Origin: Micromonospora peucetia
GTDB lineage: Bacteria; Actinomycetota; Actinomycetes; Mycobacteriales; Micromonosporaceae
Direction: 5' to 3'
Length of the DNA stretch: 64,000 nucleotides
Assembly: GCF_900091625.1 (NCBI RefSeq)
Contig: NZ_FMIC01000002.1
Coordinates: forward strand, 5,332,001-5,396,000
How positions within the stretch are numbered: position 1 is the stretch's first letter; the number at the start of each line of letters is the position of its first letter. Both the position numbers and the translations under genes were made by a program. The notes under the pieces were generated by a model that did no database searches, was not told the DNA's origin, and saw only the letters and a list, made by a program, of their open reading frames with translations. Below are positions 36,833 through 42,599 of this stretch, piece after piece.

Positions 36833-38470
36833 GTGACCGGCTGGCAGGTCTCCGGCTACCGCCCGGTGCGGCAGCTCGGCGCCGGCGCGTCCGGCCGGGT
36901 GGACCTCGCGGTGCACGACGCGACCGGCACACCGGTCGCGATCAAGTACCTCACCGGCGGGATCGGCGACGACCCGTCGTTCCGTGGCGCGTTCCGCGCC
37001 GAGGCCCGGTTGCTGGCCGAGATCGACGACCCGCACGTCTCCCGTCTCTACGAGTACGTCGAGTCGCCCACCGGGGCGGCGATCGTCATGGAGTTGGTCA
37101 ACGGCGTGTCGCTGCGGCAGATGCTGCGCGCGCACGGGCCGACGGCCCCGGAGTCGGCGCTCTGCGTCCTCAAGGGATCGCTGGCCGGGCTCGGCGCGGC
37201 GCACGCCCGGGGCGTCGTGCACCGCGACTACAAGCCGGAGAACGTGCTGGTCACCGCCGAGGGCACCAGCAAGCTGGCCGACTTCGGTATCGCCATGCCG
37301 GTGGGTGGCAGCTCGGGGGTCAGTGTCACCGGCACCCCCCGTTACATGGCACCCGAGCAGTGGACGGGCGCGCCGGCCAGCCCGGCCTGCGACATCTACG
37401 CCGCCACCGCGACCTTCTACGAGTGCCTCACCGGGCAGCCGCCCTACGACGGGCGGGACCTGCTCACCCTGCGCCAGCAGCATGCCCACGCGTCGATTCC
37501 CACCGACCCGGCCCCCGCGCCGGTGCACGACCTGTTGCGGCACGGCATGGCCAAGCAGCCGGCCGAGCGACCACAACCCGCCCAGGTCTTCCTCGCCCTG
37601 CTGGAGCAGGTCGCGGCCGAGGTGTACGGGGACCGGTGGGAGGAGCGCGGCCTGCGTGAGCTGGCCCGACGGGCGGCCCTGCTCGCTGCCCTCTTCCCGT
37701 TCCCGGACGGCACCGGCGGCGCGACCAGCCTGGCCAGCACGACGTTCGGTGCGGGCACCAACCGGTGGACGTGGCTGCGCGCCGGCAGGGCCCGGGCGGC
37801 GCTGGTCGGCGGCGGGCTGGCCGCGGCGCTGCTCCTCGGCGGGGCCGGCCTGAGCTACGCCGCCCGCGACGAGCCGCTGCCCGCCGCCGCGCCGGCCGCG
37901 CCGGAGGCGACGACCGGTCCGACCGGCGAGCCGTCCGTGTCGGCCGCCGAGCCGCCCACGGCGACGTCCACCCCGACTCCCACCCCGACTCCCTCCGCCG
38001 AGCCAACCGCGACGACGACGGCGGCACCTGATCCCGTCGGCACCGGCGAGCCGCCGACGTCTTCGGCCCCCGCCCCGCCGACCCCGTCGACCAGCACCAG
38101 CCCGCCACCACCGGCGGACACCGTCGCCCCGTCCGTCGGCCGGGTCACGGCCAGCCCGACCGATCTGGATCCCAAGGGCTGCCCGTACGGACCCACGTCC
38201 AGCACCGTCTCCGCGATCGTTTCCGACGACCGTACGACGGTGGGGAAGCTGAGGGTGAGCGCCCGGTACACCCTGGACGGTCGCACCGCCGAGGTGGCGA
38301 TGACGTCCGATGGGCGCGGGGTGTTCCGGGGCGTCCTGGGCGAGCTGTCCCGGCCGGCGAGCAGCATCCGGATACCGGTTCGGGTCGTCGCCGTCGACGA
38401 GGCCGGCAACGCCTCGCCCGAGGGCTCACCGGTCTACCTGACGCTGCGCTCCTTCTGCACCCCGGGCTGA
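36833..38470 (+). CDS. Membrane Ser/Thr protein kinase (PknB-type) with extracellular domain
   Basis: A 545-residue kinase. The catalytic domain (about 8-265) has GAGASGRV glycine loop, K38 in VAIKYL, VVHRDYKPENVLV (HRD 130-132), DFG 150-152, activation-loop residues SVTGTPRY with Thr166/Thr168 and APE 173-175. A single membrane helix follows near 322-345 (LVGGGLAAALLLGGAGLSYA), then a Pro/Thr-rich linker and an extracellular beta domain with two Cys (KGCPYG, RSFCTPG). GTG 36833 is chosen since the kinase fold begins there. It is followed at 45 bases by a membrane protein with a regular array of [DE]-x-Thr motifs and then by a channel-like protein with DATQVV repeats, both good candidate substrates. 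Confidence 0.92.
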   Translation: MTGWQVSGYRPVRQLGAGASGRVDLAVHDATGTPVAIKYLTGGIGDDPSFRGAFRAEARLLAEIDDPHVSRLYEYVESPTGAAIVMELVNGVSLRQMLRAHGPTAPESALCVLKGSLAGLGAAHARGVVHRDYKPENVLVTAEGTSKLADFGIAMPVGGSSGVSVTGTPRYMAPEQWTGAPASPACDIYAATATFYECLTGQPPYDGRDLLTLRQQHAHASIPTDPAPAPVHDLLRHGMAKQPAERPQPAQVFLALLEQVAAEVYGDRWEERGLRELARRAALLAALFPFPDGTGGATSLASTTFGAGTNRWTWLRAGRARAALVGGGLAAALLLGGAGLSYAARDEPLPAAAPAAPEATTGPTGEPSVSAAEPPTATSTPTPTPTPSAEPTATTTAAPDPVGTGEPPTSSAPAPPTPSTSTSPPPPADTVAPSVGRVTASPTDLDPKGCPYGPTSSTVSAIVSDDRTTVGKLRVSARYTLDGRTAEVAMTSDGRGVFRGVLGELSRPASSIRIPVRVVAVDEAGNASPEGSPVYLTLRSFCTPG

Positions 38471-38515
38471 GCCCGGACACCCGATGCCGACCACGACGAC
38501 GGAGGGCGGGCCGCC

Positions 38516-39481
38516 GTGACCCAGCCGAACGATCCGACCGAGGCGCTGCCCACCCACCGGCTGCCGGCCGGCGATGCACCGACGATGCCCCCGGCCTCGG
38601 CCGACGCCACCGTGCACCTGACCGCCGGGGAGCCAACGGCACCTCTGGCCACGGAGGAGGCCACCGTGTACCTGGCGGCCAACGAGCCCACGGCGCCCCT
38701 GCCCTCCGCTGACGCCACCGTGTACCTGGCCGCCGGGGATCCGACCATGCGCCTGGCCGCCGGTGAGGCGACCGTCCACCTGACCGCCGGTGAGCCCACG
38801 GCGCACCTGGCCCGCGGCGAGCCGACGATGCCGGGGCACGCCCCGGGCGGTCAGACCGGCGCGGGATGGACGGCGTACCCGGCCTCGGGGGAGCGGACCA
38901 CCCCGGCGGCTGTCGACACCGGGCGAACCGTCGGGCCCGGGCGTACTGTCGGGGCCGGGGTGGGGTCCCCCTTCGCCGGGCCGGTGGGCGGGGAGGTGCG
39001 GTTCGGGCCGGGCGTGCCCACGACGCCACCGCCGGCGCCCGCGTGGCCGGCACCGCCGCCACGGCGGCGCTCGGCGTGGCGCACGGTGACGTCGGTGCTG
39101 TCCACCCTGCTGACCGTCGCGCTACTCGCCGTCGTAGGCCTCTATCTCTGGCAGCGGATCAGTCCACTGGAGGTCACCGGGGTGACGGTGGCGGTTCCCC
39201 GGCCGGCCGGGGACCGGTGCGACGTCACCGTCGACGTGGTGGCCACCGTGTCGACCAACGGCCGGGCGGGGCAGATCCGCTATCAGTGGCTGCGCACCGG
39301 CAGCGCGCCCGGAAGCCTGCTGACCGAACGGGTCGGGCGTGGGCAGCGCACCGTCGAGCTGACGCTGCGCTGGTCCTTCAGCGGTGTGGGCAGCACGACC
39401 GAGGCCGCCACCGTCAACATCACCTCACCGTCCCCGGTGCAGGCCCAGACCCCGGTGTCCTACGACTGCCGGCGCCGCTGA
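38516..39481 (+). CDS. Membrane protein with nine-residue [DE]-x-Thr repeats, kinase-operon protein
   Basis: A 321-residue protein of no named family. Residues 1-110 (cytoplasmic) contain Thr at 23, 32, 41, 50, 59, 68, 77, 86, 95 and 104, exactly nine residues apart, nearly all preceded by Asp/Glu at -2 (e.g. SADATVHLTAGEPT). A Pro/Gly-rich linker leads to one membrane helix near 192-214 (SVLSTLLTVALLAVVGLYLW) and an extracellular domain of about 105 residues with two Cys (DRCDVTVDVV, SYDCRRR). GTG start 45 bases after the kinase gene implies one operon. I infer that the tail is a multi-site substrate of the neighbouring kinase; nothing in the sequence proves phosphorylation. Confidence 0.75.
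   Translation: MTQPNDPTEALPTHRLPAGDAPTMPPASADATVHLTAGEPTAPLATEEATVYLAANEPTAPLPSADATVYLAAGDPTMRLAAGEATVHLTAGEPTAHLARGEPTMPGHAPGGQTGAGWTAYPASGERTTPAAVDTGRTVGPGRTVGAGVGSPFAGPVGGEVRFGPGVPTTPPPAPAWPAPPPRRRSAWRTVTSVLSTLLTVALLAVVGLYLWQRISPLEVTGVTVAVPRPAGDRCDVTVDVVATVSTNGRAGQIRYQWLRTGSAPGSLLTERVGRGQRTVELTLRWSFSGVGSTTEAATVNITSPSPVQAQTPVSYDCRRR
38582..38827 (+). repeat. Nine-residue (27-bp) coding repeat with [DE]-[AP]-Thr
   Basis: Ten Thr codons recur every 27 bases, alternating mostly DAT/EAT followed by V-[HY]-L and EPT/DPT followed by A or M. The pattern gives an 18-residue super-repeat. DNA copies have diverged, so the spacing rather than the DNA sequence has been conserved. Confidence 0.8.
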
Positions 39482-39553
39482 CCGGTGTTTCCCGGGTCGC
39501 CGCCGGGGGTAGGTCGGGCCGGACGAACCCGGATGCGGTGTGGAGGATTTCCG

Positions 39554-40537
39554 ATGAGAGACAACTTCGGCGACGCGGTGGGGGACGCCCTTCGGTCGGT
39601 GATGCTGTTCCTGCCGAAGGCCGTCGCCTTCGTGGCCATCCTGGTGGCCGGCTGGCTGATCGCCAAGGCCGTGCTGAAGATCGTGGACAAGGTGCTGGAA
39701 CGGGTGGGCTTCGACCGTGCCGTGGAGCGCGGCGGGATCCGCCGGGCCCTGGCCCGCTCCCGGTACGACGCCAGTGACATCGTCGCCAAGCTCGCCTACT
39801 ACGGAGTGCTGCTGGTGACCCTCCAGCTGGCCTTCGGCATCTGGGGACCGAACCCGATCTCCGACCTGATCGCCGGCGTGATCGCCTGGCTGCCGCGGGC
39901 CTTCGTCGCGATCGTCATAGTCGTGGTCGCCGCGGCCATCGCCAACGCGGTGAAGGACATCATCAGCGGCGCCCTGGGCGGGCTGTCGTACGGCCGGATC
40001 CTGGCCACCATCGCTTCCGTGTTCATCCTCGGCCTGGGCGTCATCGCGGCGCTCAACCAGGTCGGCGTCGCCACCGCGGTCACCACTCCGGTGCTGATCG
40101 CGGTGCTGGCCACCGTGGGCGGCATCCTCGTCGTCGGGGTGGGCGGCGGGTTGGTCCGTCCGATGCAGAGCCGCTGGGAGTCGTGGCTGACCCGGGCCGA
40201 GCGGGAGTCGCAGTTGATCGCCACGCACGCCCGCGCCTACCAGGCCGGACGCCGTGACAGCGAGGCCCACCTCGTCGCACCCGCCACGAACGACGGCGAC
40301 CCGGACGCGACCCAGGTGGTTTCCGGCCCCCGCGTCGGCCCCGATCCGGATGCGACCCAGGTGGTCTCCGGCCCGCGCGTCGACGCCGACCCGACCGTGC
40401 CCGTGCCACGGCAGGGTGACCCGGACGCCACCCAGGTCACCTCGCACGACGCCACCGTCGGAGCCCGGCCGGTCGGCGAGGACAGCGAGGCCACCATGGT
40501 CATCCCGCCGCTGGACGGCGAGCGGCACCGCCGCTGA
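39554..40537 (+). CDS. Mechanosensitive-channel-like membrane protein with Thr-motif tail
   Basis: A 327-residue protein. Four to five membrane helices (FLPKAVAFVAILVAGWLIAK, KLAYYGVLLVTLQLAFGIW, PRAFVAIVIVVVAAAIANAV, ILATIASVFILGLGVIAAL, TPVLIAVLATVGGILVVGVG) match the conserved TM-helix repeat of small MscS-related proteins (PF05552-like). The C-terminal 90 residues are cytoplasmic and disordered, with DPDATQVVSGPRV twice, DPDATQVTS, HDATVG and SEATMVI. These resemble acidic-Thr phosphoacceptor sites and match the repeats of the preceding gene. ATG 39554 has GGAGG upstream. The operon ends at the 17-bp hairpin at 40547. Confidence 0.82.
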   Translation: MRDNFGDAVGDALRSVMLFLPKAVAFVAILVAGWLIAKAVLKIVDKVLERVGFDRAVERGGIRRALARSRYDASDIVAKLAYYGVLLVTLQLAFGIWGPNPISDLIAGVIAWLPRAFVAIVIVVVAAAIANAVKDIISGALGGLSYGRILATIASVFILGLGVIAALNQVGVATAVTTPVLIAVLATVGGILVVGVGGGLVRPMQSRWESWLTRAERESQLIATHARAYQAGRRDSEAHLVAPATNDGDPDATQVVSGPRVGPDPDATQVVSGPRVDADPTVPVPRQGDPDATQVTSHDATVGARPVGEDSEATMVIPPLDGERHRR

Positions 40538-40546
40538 CCAGGCCGC

Positions 40547-40583
40547 CGTCGGGGTGGGATCCGCAGCGGATCCCACCCCGACG
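40547..40583 (+). terminator. Strong terminator after the kinase operon
   Basis: A perfect 17-bp stem, CGTCGGGGTGGGATCCG, with loop CAG and its exact complement, ten bases after the channel-like gene's stop. It separates the kinase operon from the next MFS gene. Confidence 0.85.
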
Positions 40584-40734: not shown

Positions 40735-42156
40735 ATGACTGTCCACTCTCCGCGCGTGTCCGACGCGCGCGCCCGCCGGCTGGCGGCCACCCTCTACGGG
40801 TACGCGTTCCTCACCGAACTGGTCCTGCTCTACCCGCTGTACGCGCTGCTGTTCAGCGACACCGGCCTGTCGGTGTGGCAGATCTCGTCGTTGTTCGTGA
40901 TCTGGTCGGCCGCCAGCATCCTGCTGGAAGTGCCCTCCGGCGCGTTCGCCGACGCGGTCTCCCGGCGGCTGCTGCTCAGCCTCGCACCGGTGGTCACCGC
41001 CGCCGGCTTCGCTCTCTGGGTGCTCGTGCCCTCGTACCCTGCGTTCGCCGTCGGGTTCGTGCTCTGGGGCGCCGGCGGGGCGCTCGCCTCGGGCGCGCTG
41101 GAGGCGCTGGTCTTCACCGAACTCGACCGCCTCGGCGCCGCCGGCCGGTACGCCCGCGTCATCGGTCGGGCGAAGACCGCCGGAACCCTCGGTGTGCTCA
41201 CCTCGATCCTGCTGGCCGGACCCGTGTACGCGGCCGGCGGCTACCTGGCCGTCGGTGTGGCCAGCGTGTTCGCCTGCCTGCTCGCCGCCGCCCTCGCCAC
41301 CCGACTTCCGGAACACCGCCGGCCAGCACCCGCCGATGTCGCCACCGCCACCCGGCTGCCGGAATACCACCGAACCGCTCCCGCTCCCGCTGACGCCGTG
41401 CCTGCCTGCGTCGACGCCGTGCCTGCCTGTGCTGACGCCGTGCTCGCCTGTGCTGCGCCCGCCCCCGCCCCCGCCGGGCCTGCCTGCGCCGCCGGTGTGG
41501 TCGACGGGGGGCCGGAGCGGACCGGGCGCGACGTCGGGGCGGACGACGACGAGGACCTCGGTTGGTGGGCGAGCCTGCGTGCCGGGTTCGCCGAGATCCA
41601 CGCCGACCGGGCCGTACGCGCGGCCGTGCTGCTGGTCGCGGTCGTCGCGGCCGTGTGGGGAGCCCTGGACGAGTACACCCCCCTGCTGGCCCGGGACACC
41701 GGCGTCGGCGAGGCGACCGTGCCGCTGCTGCTCCTGCTCACCTGGGTCGGGGTGGGCGTGGGAGGTCTGCTGGCCCCGATGGGGGAGCGGCTGACCGTCA
41801 GGGGGTACGCCGGGCTGCTGGCGCTGTCGGCCCTGGCCCTGGCCGCCGGGGCGCTGCTCGTCCGGCCGGTCGGCTTCGTGCTGGTCGGGGCCGCGTTCTG
41901 CGGCTTCCAGCTCGCCACCGTGCTCGCCGACGCCCGGTTGCAGGCCCGGATCACCGGTGGCAGCCGGGCCACGGTGACATCGCTGGCCGGGATGGCCACG
42001 GACGTGACGATCATCGGGGTGTACGGCGGGTACGGCCTGCTGGCCACCGGGGCCGGCAACGGGGTCGCCTTCGCGGTGGCCGCGGTGCCGTACCTGATCG
42101 TCGCGCTGCTCCTGGTGATCACGTGTACGGGTCCAGCCCGGCCCCGCCGCCGGTGA
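40735..42156 (+). CDS. MFS transporter, probable exporter
   Basis: A 473-residue, twelve-helix major facilitator. The first half has YGYAFLTELVLLYPLYALLF, SSLFVIWSAASILLEVPSGA-type motif A region FADAVSRRLLL and YARVIGRAKTAGTLG. The central cytoplasmic loop is unusually long (about 85 residues) and contains three seven-residue repeats with Cys (41392-41454). The second half begins at AVRAAVLLVAVVAAVWGAL. Its upstream region looks like a translational attenuator, which suggests inducible drug or metabolite export. ATG 40735 after GGAAGG. Confidence 0.85.
   Translation: MTVHSPRVSDARARRLAATLYGYAFLTELVLLYPLYALLFSDTGLSVWQISSLFVIWSAASILLEVPSGAFADAVSRRLLLSLAPVVTAAGFALWVLVPSYPAFAVGFVLWGAGGALASGALEALVFTELDRLGAAGRYARVIGRAKTAGTLGVLTSILLAGPVYAAGGYLAVGVASVFACLLAAALATRLPEHRRPAPADVATATRLPEYHRTAPAPADAVPACVDAVPACADAVLACAAPAPAPAGPACAAGVVDGGPERTGRDVGADDDEDLGWWASLRAGFAEIHADRAVRAAVLLVAVVAAVWGALDEYTPLLARDTGVGEATVPLLLLLTWVGVGVGGLLAPMGERLTVRGYAGLLALSALALAAGALLVRPVGFVLVGAAFCGFQLATVLADARLQARITGGSRATVTSLAGMATDVTIIGVYGGYGLLATGAGNGVAFAVAAVPYLIVALLLVITCTGPARPRRR
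41392..41454 (+). repeat. Three 21-bp tandem repeats inside the MFS gene
   Basis: Units at 41392-41412, 41413-41433 and 41434-41454 encode DAVPACV, DAVPACA and DAVLACA. They lie in the central loop of the transporter and differ by a few bases, consistent with slippage-driven growth. Confidence 0.85.
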
Positions 42157-42198: not shown

Positions 42199-42298
42199 CG
42201 GTCCGCCCTCACCCGCGACGGTCCACCCTCACCCGCGACGGTCCGCCCTCACCCGCGACGGTCCGCCCTCACCCGCGACGGTCCGCCCTCACCCGCGA
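42199..42298. repeat. Five 20-bp tandem repeats
   Basis: The unit CGGTCCGCCCTCACCCGCGA is present five times in a row, one copy with a single change (A for G). It directly precedes the 33-bp repeat array and shares the ACCCGCGA/CCCGCGA end with it. It is non-coding, 42 bases after the MFS stop. Confidence 0.95.
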
Positions 42299-42529
42299 GG
42301 GTCCGCCGCCACCTGCGGCCTCAGCCCGCGAGGGTCCGCCGCCACCTGCGGCCTCAGCCCGCGAGGGTCCGCCGCCACCTGCGGCCTCAGCCCGCGAGGG
42401 TCCGCCGCCACCTGCGGCCTCAGCCCGCGAGGGTCCGCCGCCACCTGCGGCCTCAGCCCGCGAGGGTCCGCCGCCACCTGCGGCCTCAGCCCGCGAGGGT
42501 CCGCCGCCACCTGCGGCCTCAGCCCGCGA
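42299..42529. repeat. Seven perfect 33-bp tandem repeats (minisatellite-like)
   Basis: Seven identical 33-base units, each beginning GGGTCCGCCGCCACCTGCGG and ending CCTCAGCCCGCGA. Because 33 is a multiple of three, several frames stay open and produce artificial repeat proteins; no start, ribosome-binding site or family supports a gene. There are no spacers, so it is not a CRISPR array. Perfect identity implies recent expansion. Confidence 0.95.
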
Positions 42530-42599
42530 TCTTGCACTTTCTGCCCCGGCAAAGGGGGCATTCGCCGCATCTAGGGGGCCCAAAGTGCAAGATCGCGGG
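42523..42599. repeat. 18-bp inverted repeat, probable bidirectional terminator
   Basis: Perfect arms CCCGCGATCTTGCACTTT (42523-42540) and its complement (42582-42599) flank 41 bases. It is 78 bases downstream of the FadR-type gene's stop (minus strand) and beyond the MFS gene (plus strand). From memory, GCGATCTTGCACTTT-containing hairpins are common dispersed elements in Micromonospora. Confidence 0.7.

Follow-up and report, generated by a model that had tools for sequence, protein, structure and literature searches.

A receptor-type Ser/Thr kinase of Micromonospora peucetia is encoded beside two membrane proteins with arrays of a common threonine motif

Three consecutive genes of Micromonospora peucetia, located in a 64,000-nucleotide stretch (here called the window) at C2:5332001-5396000 of the 7.37 Mb assembly, encode a receptor-type Hanks Ser/Thr kinase (K), a membrane protein (M) and a protein of the CmpX/MscS-like channel family. 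M and the channel protein are unrelated, and both carry arrays of the same composite motif, [DE]-x-T-x-x-[LVI], in two dialects of one grammar. The arrays are real, non-random, conserved and unusual. K and M are paired in nearly all of the loci compared, and M has relatives with a kinase-derived domain, among which the array-only forms are nested in the ectodomain tree. The reading that we favour, with a confidence somewhat better than even, is that K and M are a receptor kinase and its partner, and that M, formerly a pseudokinase partner, would now be a scaffold phosphorylated at many sites; phosphothreonine (pThr) reading by FHA domains, clustering and control of the channel would follow from this. 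The features of the locus are as follows (Ig, immunoglobulin).

36833 to 38470, plus strand: kinase K, receptor-type Hanks Ser/Thr kinase, 545 amino acids
residues 9-252 of K, plus strand: kinase domain, PF00069
38117 to 38467, plus strand: ectodomain of K, predicted Ig-like beta-sandwich with two conserved Cys
38516 to 39481, plus strand: membrane protein M, 321 amino acids; N-terminal tail with Thr array, one transmembrane helix, predicted Ig-like ectodomain
38570 to 38839, plus strand: Thr array of M, ten Thr at nine-residue spacing (T23-T104), mostly [DE]-[AP]-T-[VAM]-x-L
39149 to 39478, plus strand: ectodomain of M, predicted seven-strand beta-sandwich with an invariant Cys pair
39554 to 40537, plus strand: CmpX/MscS-like channel protein, 327 amino acids, PF05552; C-terminal tail predicted to be cytosolic
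40304 to 40504, plus strand: Thr array of the channel tail, with DATQVV twice, DPTVPV, DATQVT, DATVGA and EATMVI

The gaps between the three genes, all on the plus strand, are 45 and 72 bases.

Threonine arrays and their common motif

The first-pass annotation of this DNA had described ten Thr residues in the tail of M, exactly nine apart and nearly all with an acidic residue at position -2. This description is borne out: the array Thr lie at positions 23, 32, 41, 50, 59, 68, 77, 86, 95 and 104, and nine of the ten have Asp or Glu at -2, while T23 has Asp at -3. When the 184-residue N-terminal tail was shuffled 20,000 times and all periods from 2 to 30 were scanned, the longest in-register chain of Thr was 8 (reached once), compared with the 10 observed; likewise, [DE]xT occurs 11 times in the tail against a shuffle mean of 2.2 and a maximum of 8. 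The tail is of low complexity and precedes the single transmembrane helix, ahead of which basic residues are found. Membership of M in a Pfam or NCBIfam family was rejected, as no family of either collection was matched, and the PF11259/DUF3060 labels borne by three listed repeat-rich homologues of M (P0044, P0046 and P0047) resemble low-complexity matches.

The repeats DATQVV (twice), DATQVT, DATVG and EATMV reported for the channel tail were all found. In this tail [DE]xT occurs six times, compared with a shuffle mean of 1.6 (at least six in 30 of 20,000 shuffles). The protein belongs to PF05552 (E=6.6e-18; 64.8 bits against a cut-off of 22, in two matched stretches) and stays below the threshold of the NCBIfam mechanosensitive ion channel model NF033912 (44.7 bits against a cut-off of 100); it is described here as a CmpX/MscS-like protein with predicted channel activity. 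Hydropathy and the flanking basic residues suggest that the tails of both M and the channel face the cytoplasm. A paralogue of the channel in the same genome (L146, G000:C2:7006874-7007575; 74% identical) has a short tail with about two such Thr sites.

Motif density was assessed in a genome control of 339 open reading frames (ORFs; 125,126 amino acids, M and the channel included) from about 464 kb of the same genome, consisting of the window and 20 stretches of 20 kb, two of which were picked for FHA or kinase genes and 18 spread along the contig. By the number of strict motifs in the best 120 amino acids, M ranked first with eight and the channel second with four, followed by three ORFs with two, 39 with one and 295 with none.

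For the comparison among relatives, 53 loci were retrieved by means of two peptide patterns of M, and they are thus close relatives by design. A set of 146 unique M tails was drawn from 45 of these loci and from 118 of 120 listed proteins (120 of 231 found); the eight other loci (L025 and L047-L053, pseudokinase or kinase forms) and two proteins without a usable tail were left out of the tail statistics. The channel set consists of 28 tails from the loci, including that of the window, with the L038 channel omitted because it lies at a contig end.

The evidence for one composite motif comes from the coupling of two positions around Thr, counted over distinct Thr-centred 9-mers. In the M tails, position +3 is hydrophobic in 587 of the 755 9-mers with an acid at -2 (78%) and in 248 of the 1,344 without (18%; odds ratio (OR) 15.4, n=2,099); in the channel tails the corresponding counts are 60/79 (76%) and 15/148 (10%; OR 28, n=227). 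The 337 background ORFs show no coupling (182/733, 25%, vs 1,694/7,099, 24%; OR 1.1, p 0.55, n=7,832). It should be noted that related sequences are not independent of one another, so that p-values here should not be taken literally, and it is the contrast with the background that counts. Since the coupling is present in both tails and absent in the background, the two unrelated proteins share one recurrent, position-specific, acceptor-like motif. The dialect of M has Pro or Ala at -1, Val or Ala at +1, His or Arg at +2 and Leu at +3, and that of the channel has Asp at -4, Gln at +1, Val or Pro at +2 and Val, Ile or Leu at +3. A shared motif of this kind is as would be expected for sites of a kinase or of a phosphothreonine reader.

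Kinase K and the pseudokinase relatives of M

K matches PF00069 with an E-value of 5.5e-43 (147.7 bits against a Pfam cut-off of 31.7) and contains the AIK, HRD (130) and DFG (150) motifs of Hanks kinases; the catalytic Lys, HRD and DFG are invariant across 19 aligned rows, and the closest solved structures are those of PknE, StkP, PknA and PknB. Beyond the kinase domain, K has one transmembrane-like stretch (322-340), a Thr/Pro-rich outer linker and an ectodomain modelled as a single Ig-like domain (AlphaFold2 pLDDT 93.9), in which C22 and C114 are invariant in 35 rows. A Foldseek search of the PDB with this model gave seven matches with E<1e-3, three of which were Ig V-type domains (PD-1, VNAR; E about 6e-4), while the others came from Integrator complexes and a peptidylarginine deiminase. 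K is not a PASTA kinase by the profiles used: no PASTA domain was found in the Pfam scan, and the score for NCBIfam NF033483 was 184.6 bits against a cut-off of 450.

The ectodomain of M was modelled with a pLDDT of 94.2, and its C24 and C107 are invariant in 44 rows; a fold search against the PDB returned generic beta-sandwich matches, none with E<1e-3. A shared origin of the two ectodomains was considered and found unsupported (hhalign 1.2%). K and M thus make up a conserved pair; both span the membrane once and carry a predicted Ig-like ectodomain toward the envelope.

In six Streptosporangiaceae loci (L047-L050, L052 and L053), the ectodomain and transmembrane helix of M are joined to another N-terminal domain, and tblastn detected the same form in 10 of another 12 Micromonosporaceae loci (L118-L127, with a weak and partial match in L121). 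Pfam did not recognise the domain in the seven sequences tested, i.e. those of L025 and of the six Streptosporangiaceae loci. However, a profile built from the same seven sequences (A2) matches PknA in the PDB (E 1.4e-7) and aligns to the profile of K at 95% probability over the HRD-DFG stretch, where HRD has become HG[AS] and DFG has become ERG. Because it matches kinase profiles and has lost HRD and DFG, the domain is read as a pseudokinase, and the loci of these deeper relatives encode kinase-pseudokinase pairs. The N-terminal tail of the M in the window is mostly array and contains no Pfam domain.

Intermediate forms exist. The pseudokinase and an EPTQR[IL] array occur together in Micromonospora echinofusca MPMI6 and in strain CPCC 206060, while other Micromonospora pseudokinase forms have 0-5 full motifs and PTEAL or PTEAF sites instead. 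In addition, seven of nine pseudokinase forms (L118-L120 and L122-L127; L121 excluded, its frame being broken) contain one or two full motifs ahead of the transmembrane helix, in a count that also covers the pseudokinase domain; these linker seed sites include ESTVLL, EATVQL and EETVQL.

In an 83-row tree of the ectodomain (duplicates L105, L108, L109, L112, L115 and P0121 dropped), a single clade (support 99/97) lying among pseudokinase forms unites 51 of the 54 array-only rows. As drawn, the tree requires three label changes, only one of which is forced by well-supported branches, and its deep forks are weak because few columns are available. Most simply, the pseudokinase would have been lost and the array would have grown out of seed sites, perhaps on more than one occasion; an array has apparently replaced a pseudokinase in M.

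Some individual forms should also be mentioned. A Micromonospora group made up of L025 and P0121-P0136, with echinofusca, echinospora, inyonensis, pallida and sagamiensis among the names, combines the pseudokinase with a Thr-rich linker, and in some of its members the PTEAL/PTEAF sites have the acid at +1, not at -2. An actinomycete metagenome-assembled genome encodes an intact Hanks kinase to which an M-type ectodomain is fused (L051:6029-7492), with another kinase gene adjoining. The K homologue at L121:3435-4207 spans two overlapping frames (frameshift or sequencing error) and adjoins the broken-looking M of that locus.

Conservation of the arrays and of the gene neighbourhood

The 146 M tails contain a median of six full motifs (range 0-15) against 0.28 expected, and 127 of them lie above all 200 of their own shuffles. 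What is conserved is the motif and not, as the first-pass annotation had anticipated, the nine-residue spacing, which was rejected as a conserved feature: nine is the modal spacing in just 64/146 tails, 42 have no repeated spacing, and in the others it is 17, 10, 18 or 15. Since the spacing varies among tails while the motif persists, the period is mostly the unit of duplication. In the channels, at least one full motif was found in 26/28 tails and at least three in 24/28, and a C-terminal site [DE]-x-[DE]-[AS]-T-[MIV]-[VI]-[IL]-P in 25/28. The tail of the L006 channel runs out into unrelated sequence that lacks full motifs, which a frameshift may explain. Outside the Micromonosporaceae, no motif was found in 10 readable tails of channel homologues from 19 fetched loci, six of which (L133, L136, L139 and L142-L144) were unread, while L140 and L147 comprised the transmembrane piece only.

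A kinase domain lies 5' of M in 49 of the 53 loci (the window's own included), and in the remaining four (L003, L012, L025 and L036) the contig ends inside the kinase gene, with the K ectodomain visible. An independent draw of 61 Micromonosporaceae genomes revealed the M ectodomain in 13 of them (11 of 44 genera), with a kinase close to 10 of the 12 homologues that remain when the M of the window is set aside, so that the kinase neighbourhood is conserved in both samples. The channel gene lies 3' of M in 29/30 Micromonospora-type loci, directly so in 25.

The 3' end of the channel gene is followed by one further feature.

40547 to 40583, plus strand: perfect 17-bp hairpin with a 3-nt loop, 9 nt past the channel stop codon; possible U-less terminator

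The three genes had been thought to be closed by a 17-bp terminator. The hairpin itself is well defined (-47.5 kcal/mol, z -6.2), but it has no T-run, the terminator scan gave 0 sites, and an intrinsic terminator by pattern was rejected for want of a matching site; its role as a terminator is therefore unproven. On the other side, an SPFH gene 5' of K was left out of the unit because it was matched in just 2/53 loci (L004 and L019), a count in which several loci are short. Downstream, positions 40735-42156 encode a major facilitator superfamily (MFS)-type protein that contains an Ala/Cys/Pro repeat (VPACVDAVPACADAVLACA...) in its interior; in many Micromonospora loci a related gene sits 3' of the channel. 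Beyond this gene, the head-to-tail repeat at 42269-42583, with AEAAGGGGPSR in the minus-strand reading, is probably a non-coding or degenerate tandem array.

Proposed mechanism, alternatives and related systems

In the mechanism that we propose, M would at first have been a pseudokinase partner of K. The pseudokinase domain would have been lost in the Micromonospora/Actinoplanes lineage, and one or two membrane-proximal linker sites would have been amplified, most in Micromonospora, up to 15 sites. In the present system, an envelope signal would draw K and M together, and K, possibly with other PknA/B-type kinases, would phosphorylate the array of M, turning the tail into a graded, multivalent phosphothreonine platform which may recruit FHA-domain proteins and cluster the complex. 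The channel, which has an array of this motif class too, would be a co-substrate, with phosphorylation tuning its gating or clustering. The most far-reaching version of this proposal, namely that a receptor pseudokinase has become a transmembrane phosphothreonine array whose length-tunable scaffold clusters the kinase and a mechanosensitive-type channel with the same motif in the manner of eukaryotic multi-site receptor tails, must be regarded as doubtful.

The GarA of this genome, which scores above the NCBIfam cut-off, contains D-V-T-S-T-L near its N-terminus, i.e. the same D-x-T-x-x-L grammar, in what we take to be the region of the known GarA phosphosite. As to kinase preferences, the available part of a PknA-depletion study gives acidic residues at -1 and from -3 to -6, Pro both at -1 and at +2, and Leu or Val at +3 (PMC7164672), and the accessible portions of other mycobacterial site sets give Glu-x-x-pThr and acidic surroundings (PMC5845002, PMC6554272). 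The motif of the two tails partly matches the PknA pattern, in Pro at -1, in Leu/Val at +3 and in the presence of upstream acids. The first-pass annotation had quoted a preference for acidic residues before Thr and for Gln or a hydrophobic residue after it; the PknA pattern as far as available does not include Gln (PMC7164672).

Several observations weigh against the proposed mechanism. In that same available part of the PknA pattern, the acids stand at -1 and -3 to -6, not at -2 (PMC7164672); there are four FHA matches among the matches listed for this genome, the nearest about 120 kb off; and our literature search yielded no phosphorylation data on K, M or the channel and no paper joining Micromonospora, serine threonine kinases and phosphoproteomics. 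Two of the 12 further loci (L122 and L126) have no kinase inside the fetched stretch, and M was not matched in one of the two other genomes of the same genus (G009). None of the 15 Actinoplanes/Paractinoplanes loci contains the channel gene (0/15), and their M tails hold 0-5 full motifs, two of them none. Channels unlinked to M in three Actinoplanes/Paractinoplanes genomes keep their arrays nonetheless, with D-x-T-Q-V-I-type sites recognised by eye clearly in L102 and L103 and partly in L104. In Micromonospora echinofusca MPMI6, which has an array on M, the sole channel match (L101) is short-tailed, like paralogue L146 in the genome of the window, and has little of the motif; from two Sphaerisporangium genomes no channel match was obtained. 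Since the unlinked channels keep their arrays, the channel array is independent of its place beside M, and K need not be the kinase of the Actinoplanes channels. The earlier suggestion of a dedicated kinase-substrate module controlling a channel is accordingly sustained as regards the conserved kinase and the common motif, and weakened as regards the link to the channel. Besides the four FHA matches, 23 kinase matches are among those listed for this genome; L056 contains a small FHA protein.

Among the alternatives to a phosphorylated scaffold, an unlikely one is that the motif serves for docking independent of phosphorylation, the repeated peptides binding by avidity to a partner, for instance the surface of the kinase or a protein of the cytoskeleton, and the Thr being structural. 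The grammar is tight and common to two proteins, M has V/A and H/R at +1 and +2 where the channel has Q and V/P, and phosphorylation is something that we infer, all of which docking would accommodate; against docking stand the kinase gene, a neighbour that does not change, and the agreement of Thr flanked by Pro (-1) and Leu/Val (+3) with the PknA-dependent sites in the available part of the published set (PMC7164672). It is distinctly improbable that the array is a kinase sink, with M competing for or holding K as a pseudosubstrate or buffer, so that substrate avidity would take over the lost pseudokinase function of holding K and would yield a threshold or ultrasensitive switch with no pThr readers. 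Because relatives of M bear a pseudokinase beside the same kinase family, binding K is a plausible old role of M, and both the wide range of copy number (0-15), as dosage tuning would give, and the small number of FHA matches among those listed for the genome agree with a sink. On the other hand, the motif is also carried, separately from M, by the channel array, and the hydrophobic residue at +3 falls on the classical selectivity position of FHA domains after pThr. Finally, a neutral by-product of tandem duplication in a GC-rich disordered tail, with the nine-residue period as the duplication unit, is disfavoured as very improbable: although the DNA under the M array has tandem periods of 27/54/108 bp (73-76% match) and copy number and period differ between species, the same motif occurs in the unrelated channel on a different repeat (45-bp period, Gln at +1), the -2/+3 coupling is present in both proteins and not in the background, and, among positions not used to select the units, 49% of the pairs of acidic-Thr units within an M tail agree at +3, compared with 23-35% at the others.

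The proteins of the locus have partial counterparts in known systems. In mycobacteria, MviN and FhaA form a phosphorylated pseudokinase complex in which MviN is a lipid II flippase fusion and the FHA protein reads pThr; the resemblance lies in a membrane-protein pseudokinase beside Hanks kinases and in the reading of pThr by an FHA protein, but the pseudokinase forms of M have a single transmembrane helix and an Ig-like ectodomain, and the M of the window has no pseudokinase. Like the PASTA kinases PknB and StkP, K is a receptor Ser/Thr kinase that spans the membrane once and whose catalytic motifs are intact; it differs in having an Ig-like ectodomain and not PASTA repeats. The channel shares with CmpX-type MscS-like channels (PF05552) the conserved transmembrane helix in two stretches, whereas, among the tails read, the array-bearing C-terminal tail occurs only in the Micromonosporaceae. 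GarA/OdhI is an actinobacterial kinase substrate, as M is proposed to be, and the GarA of this genome has an FHA domain and one D-x-T-x-x-L site; in contrast to M, it is soluble, with one site read intramolecularly by its FHA domain, and has no array.

The gene pknF is presumably the neighbour of Rv1747 in Mycobacterium tuberculosis, and to our knowledge the Rv1747 system has no counterpart to the site array, the ectodomain or the pseudokinase ancestry of M. Among the mechanisms in print that we know of, PknF-driven clustering of Rv1747, an ABC transporter, would be the closest by analogy: in the available part of a review, Rv1747 is a membrane transport protein phosphorylated by a kinase, with a disordered cytosolic segment and phosphorylation-dependent clustering (PMC9312465), a likeness that would extend to M and the channel if they are phosphorylated. 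Rv1747 has two FHA domains of its own, whereas none was found in M or the channel in the Pfam scan. A literature search, with subscription papers mostly outside it, showed among the titles listed no account of a membrane partner that has a Thr array and lies next to a kinase, and the titles and abstract openings listed revealed no kinase control of a CmpX/MscS-like channel in bacteria.

Bacterial Hanks kinases usually have a small number of dispersed sites that are difficult to predict, and here the genome seems to display an acceptor code beside the kinase, in up to 15 copies per tail. The series of pseudokinase with seed sites, pseudokinase with array, and array alone suggests a route by which a phospho-tail may replace a pseudokinase partner, and the locus points to possible kinase control of a CmpX/MscS-like channel. 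The K-M locus would therefore provide a direct test of the targets of a non-PASTA actinobacterial kinase and of their reader.

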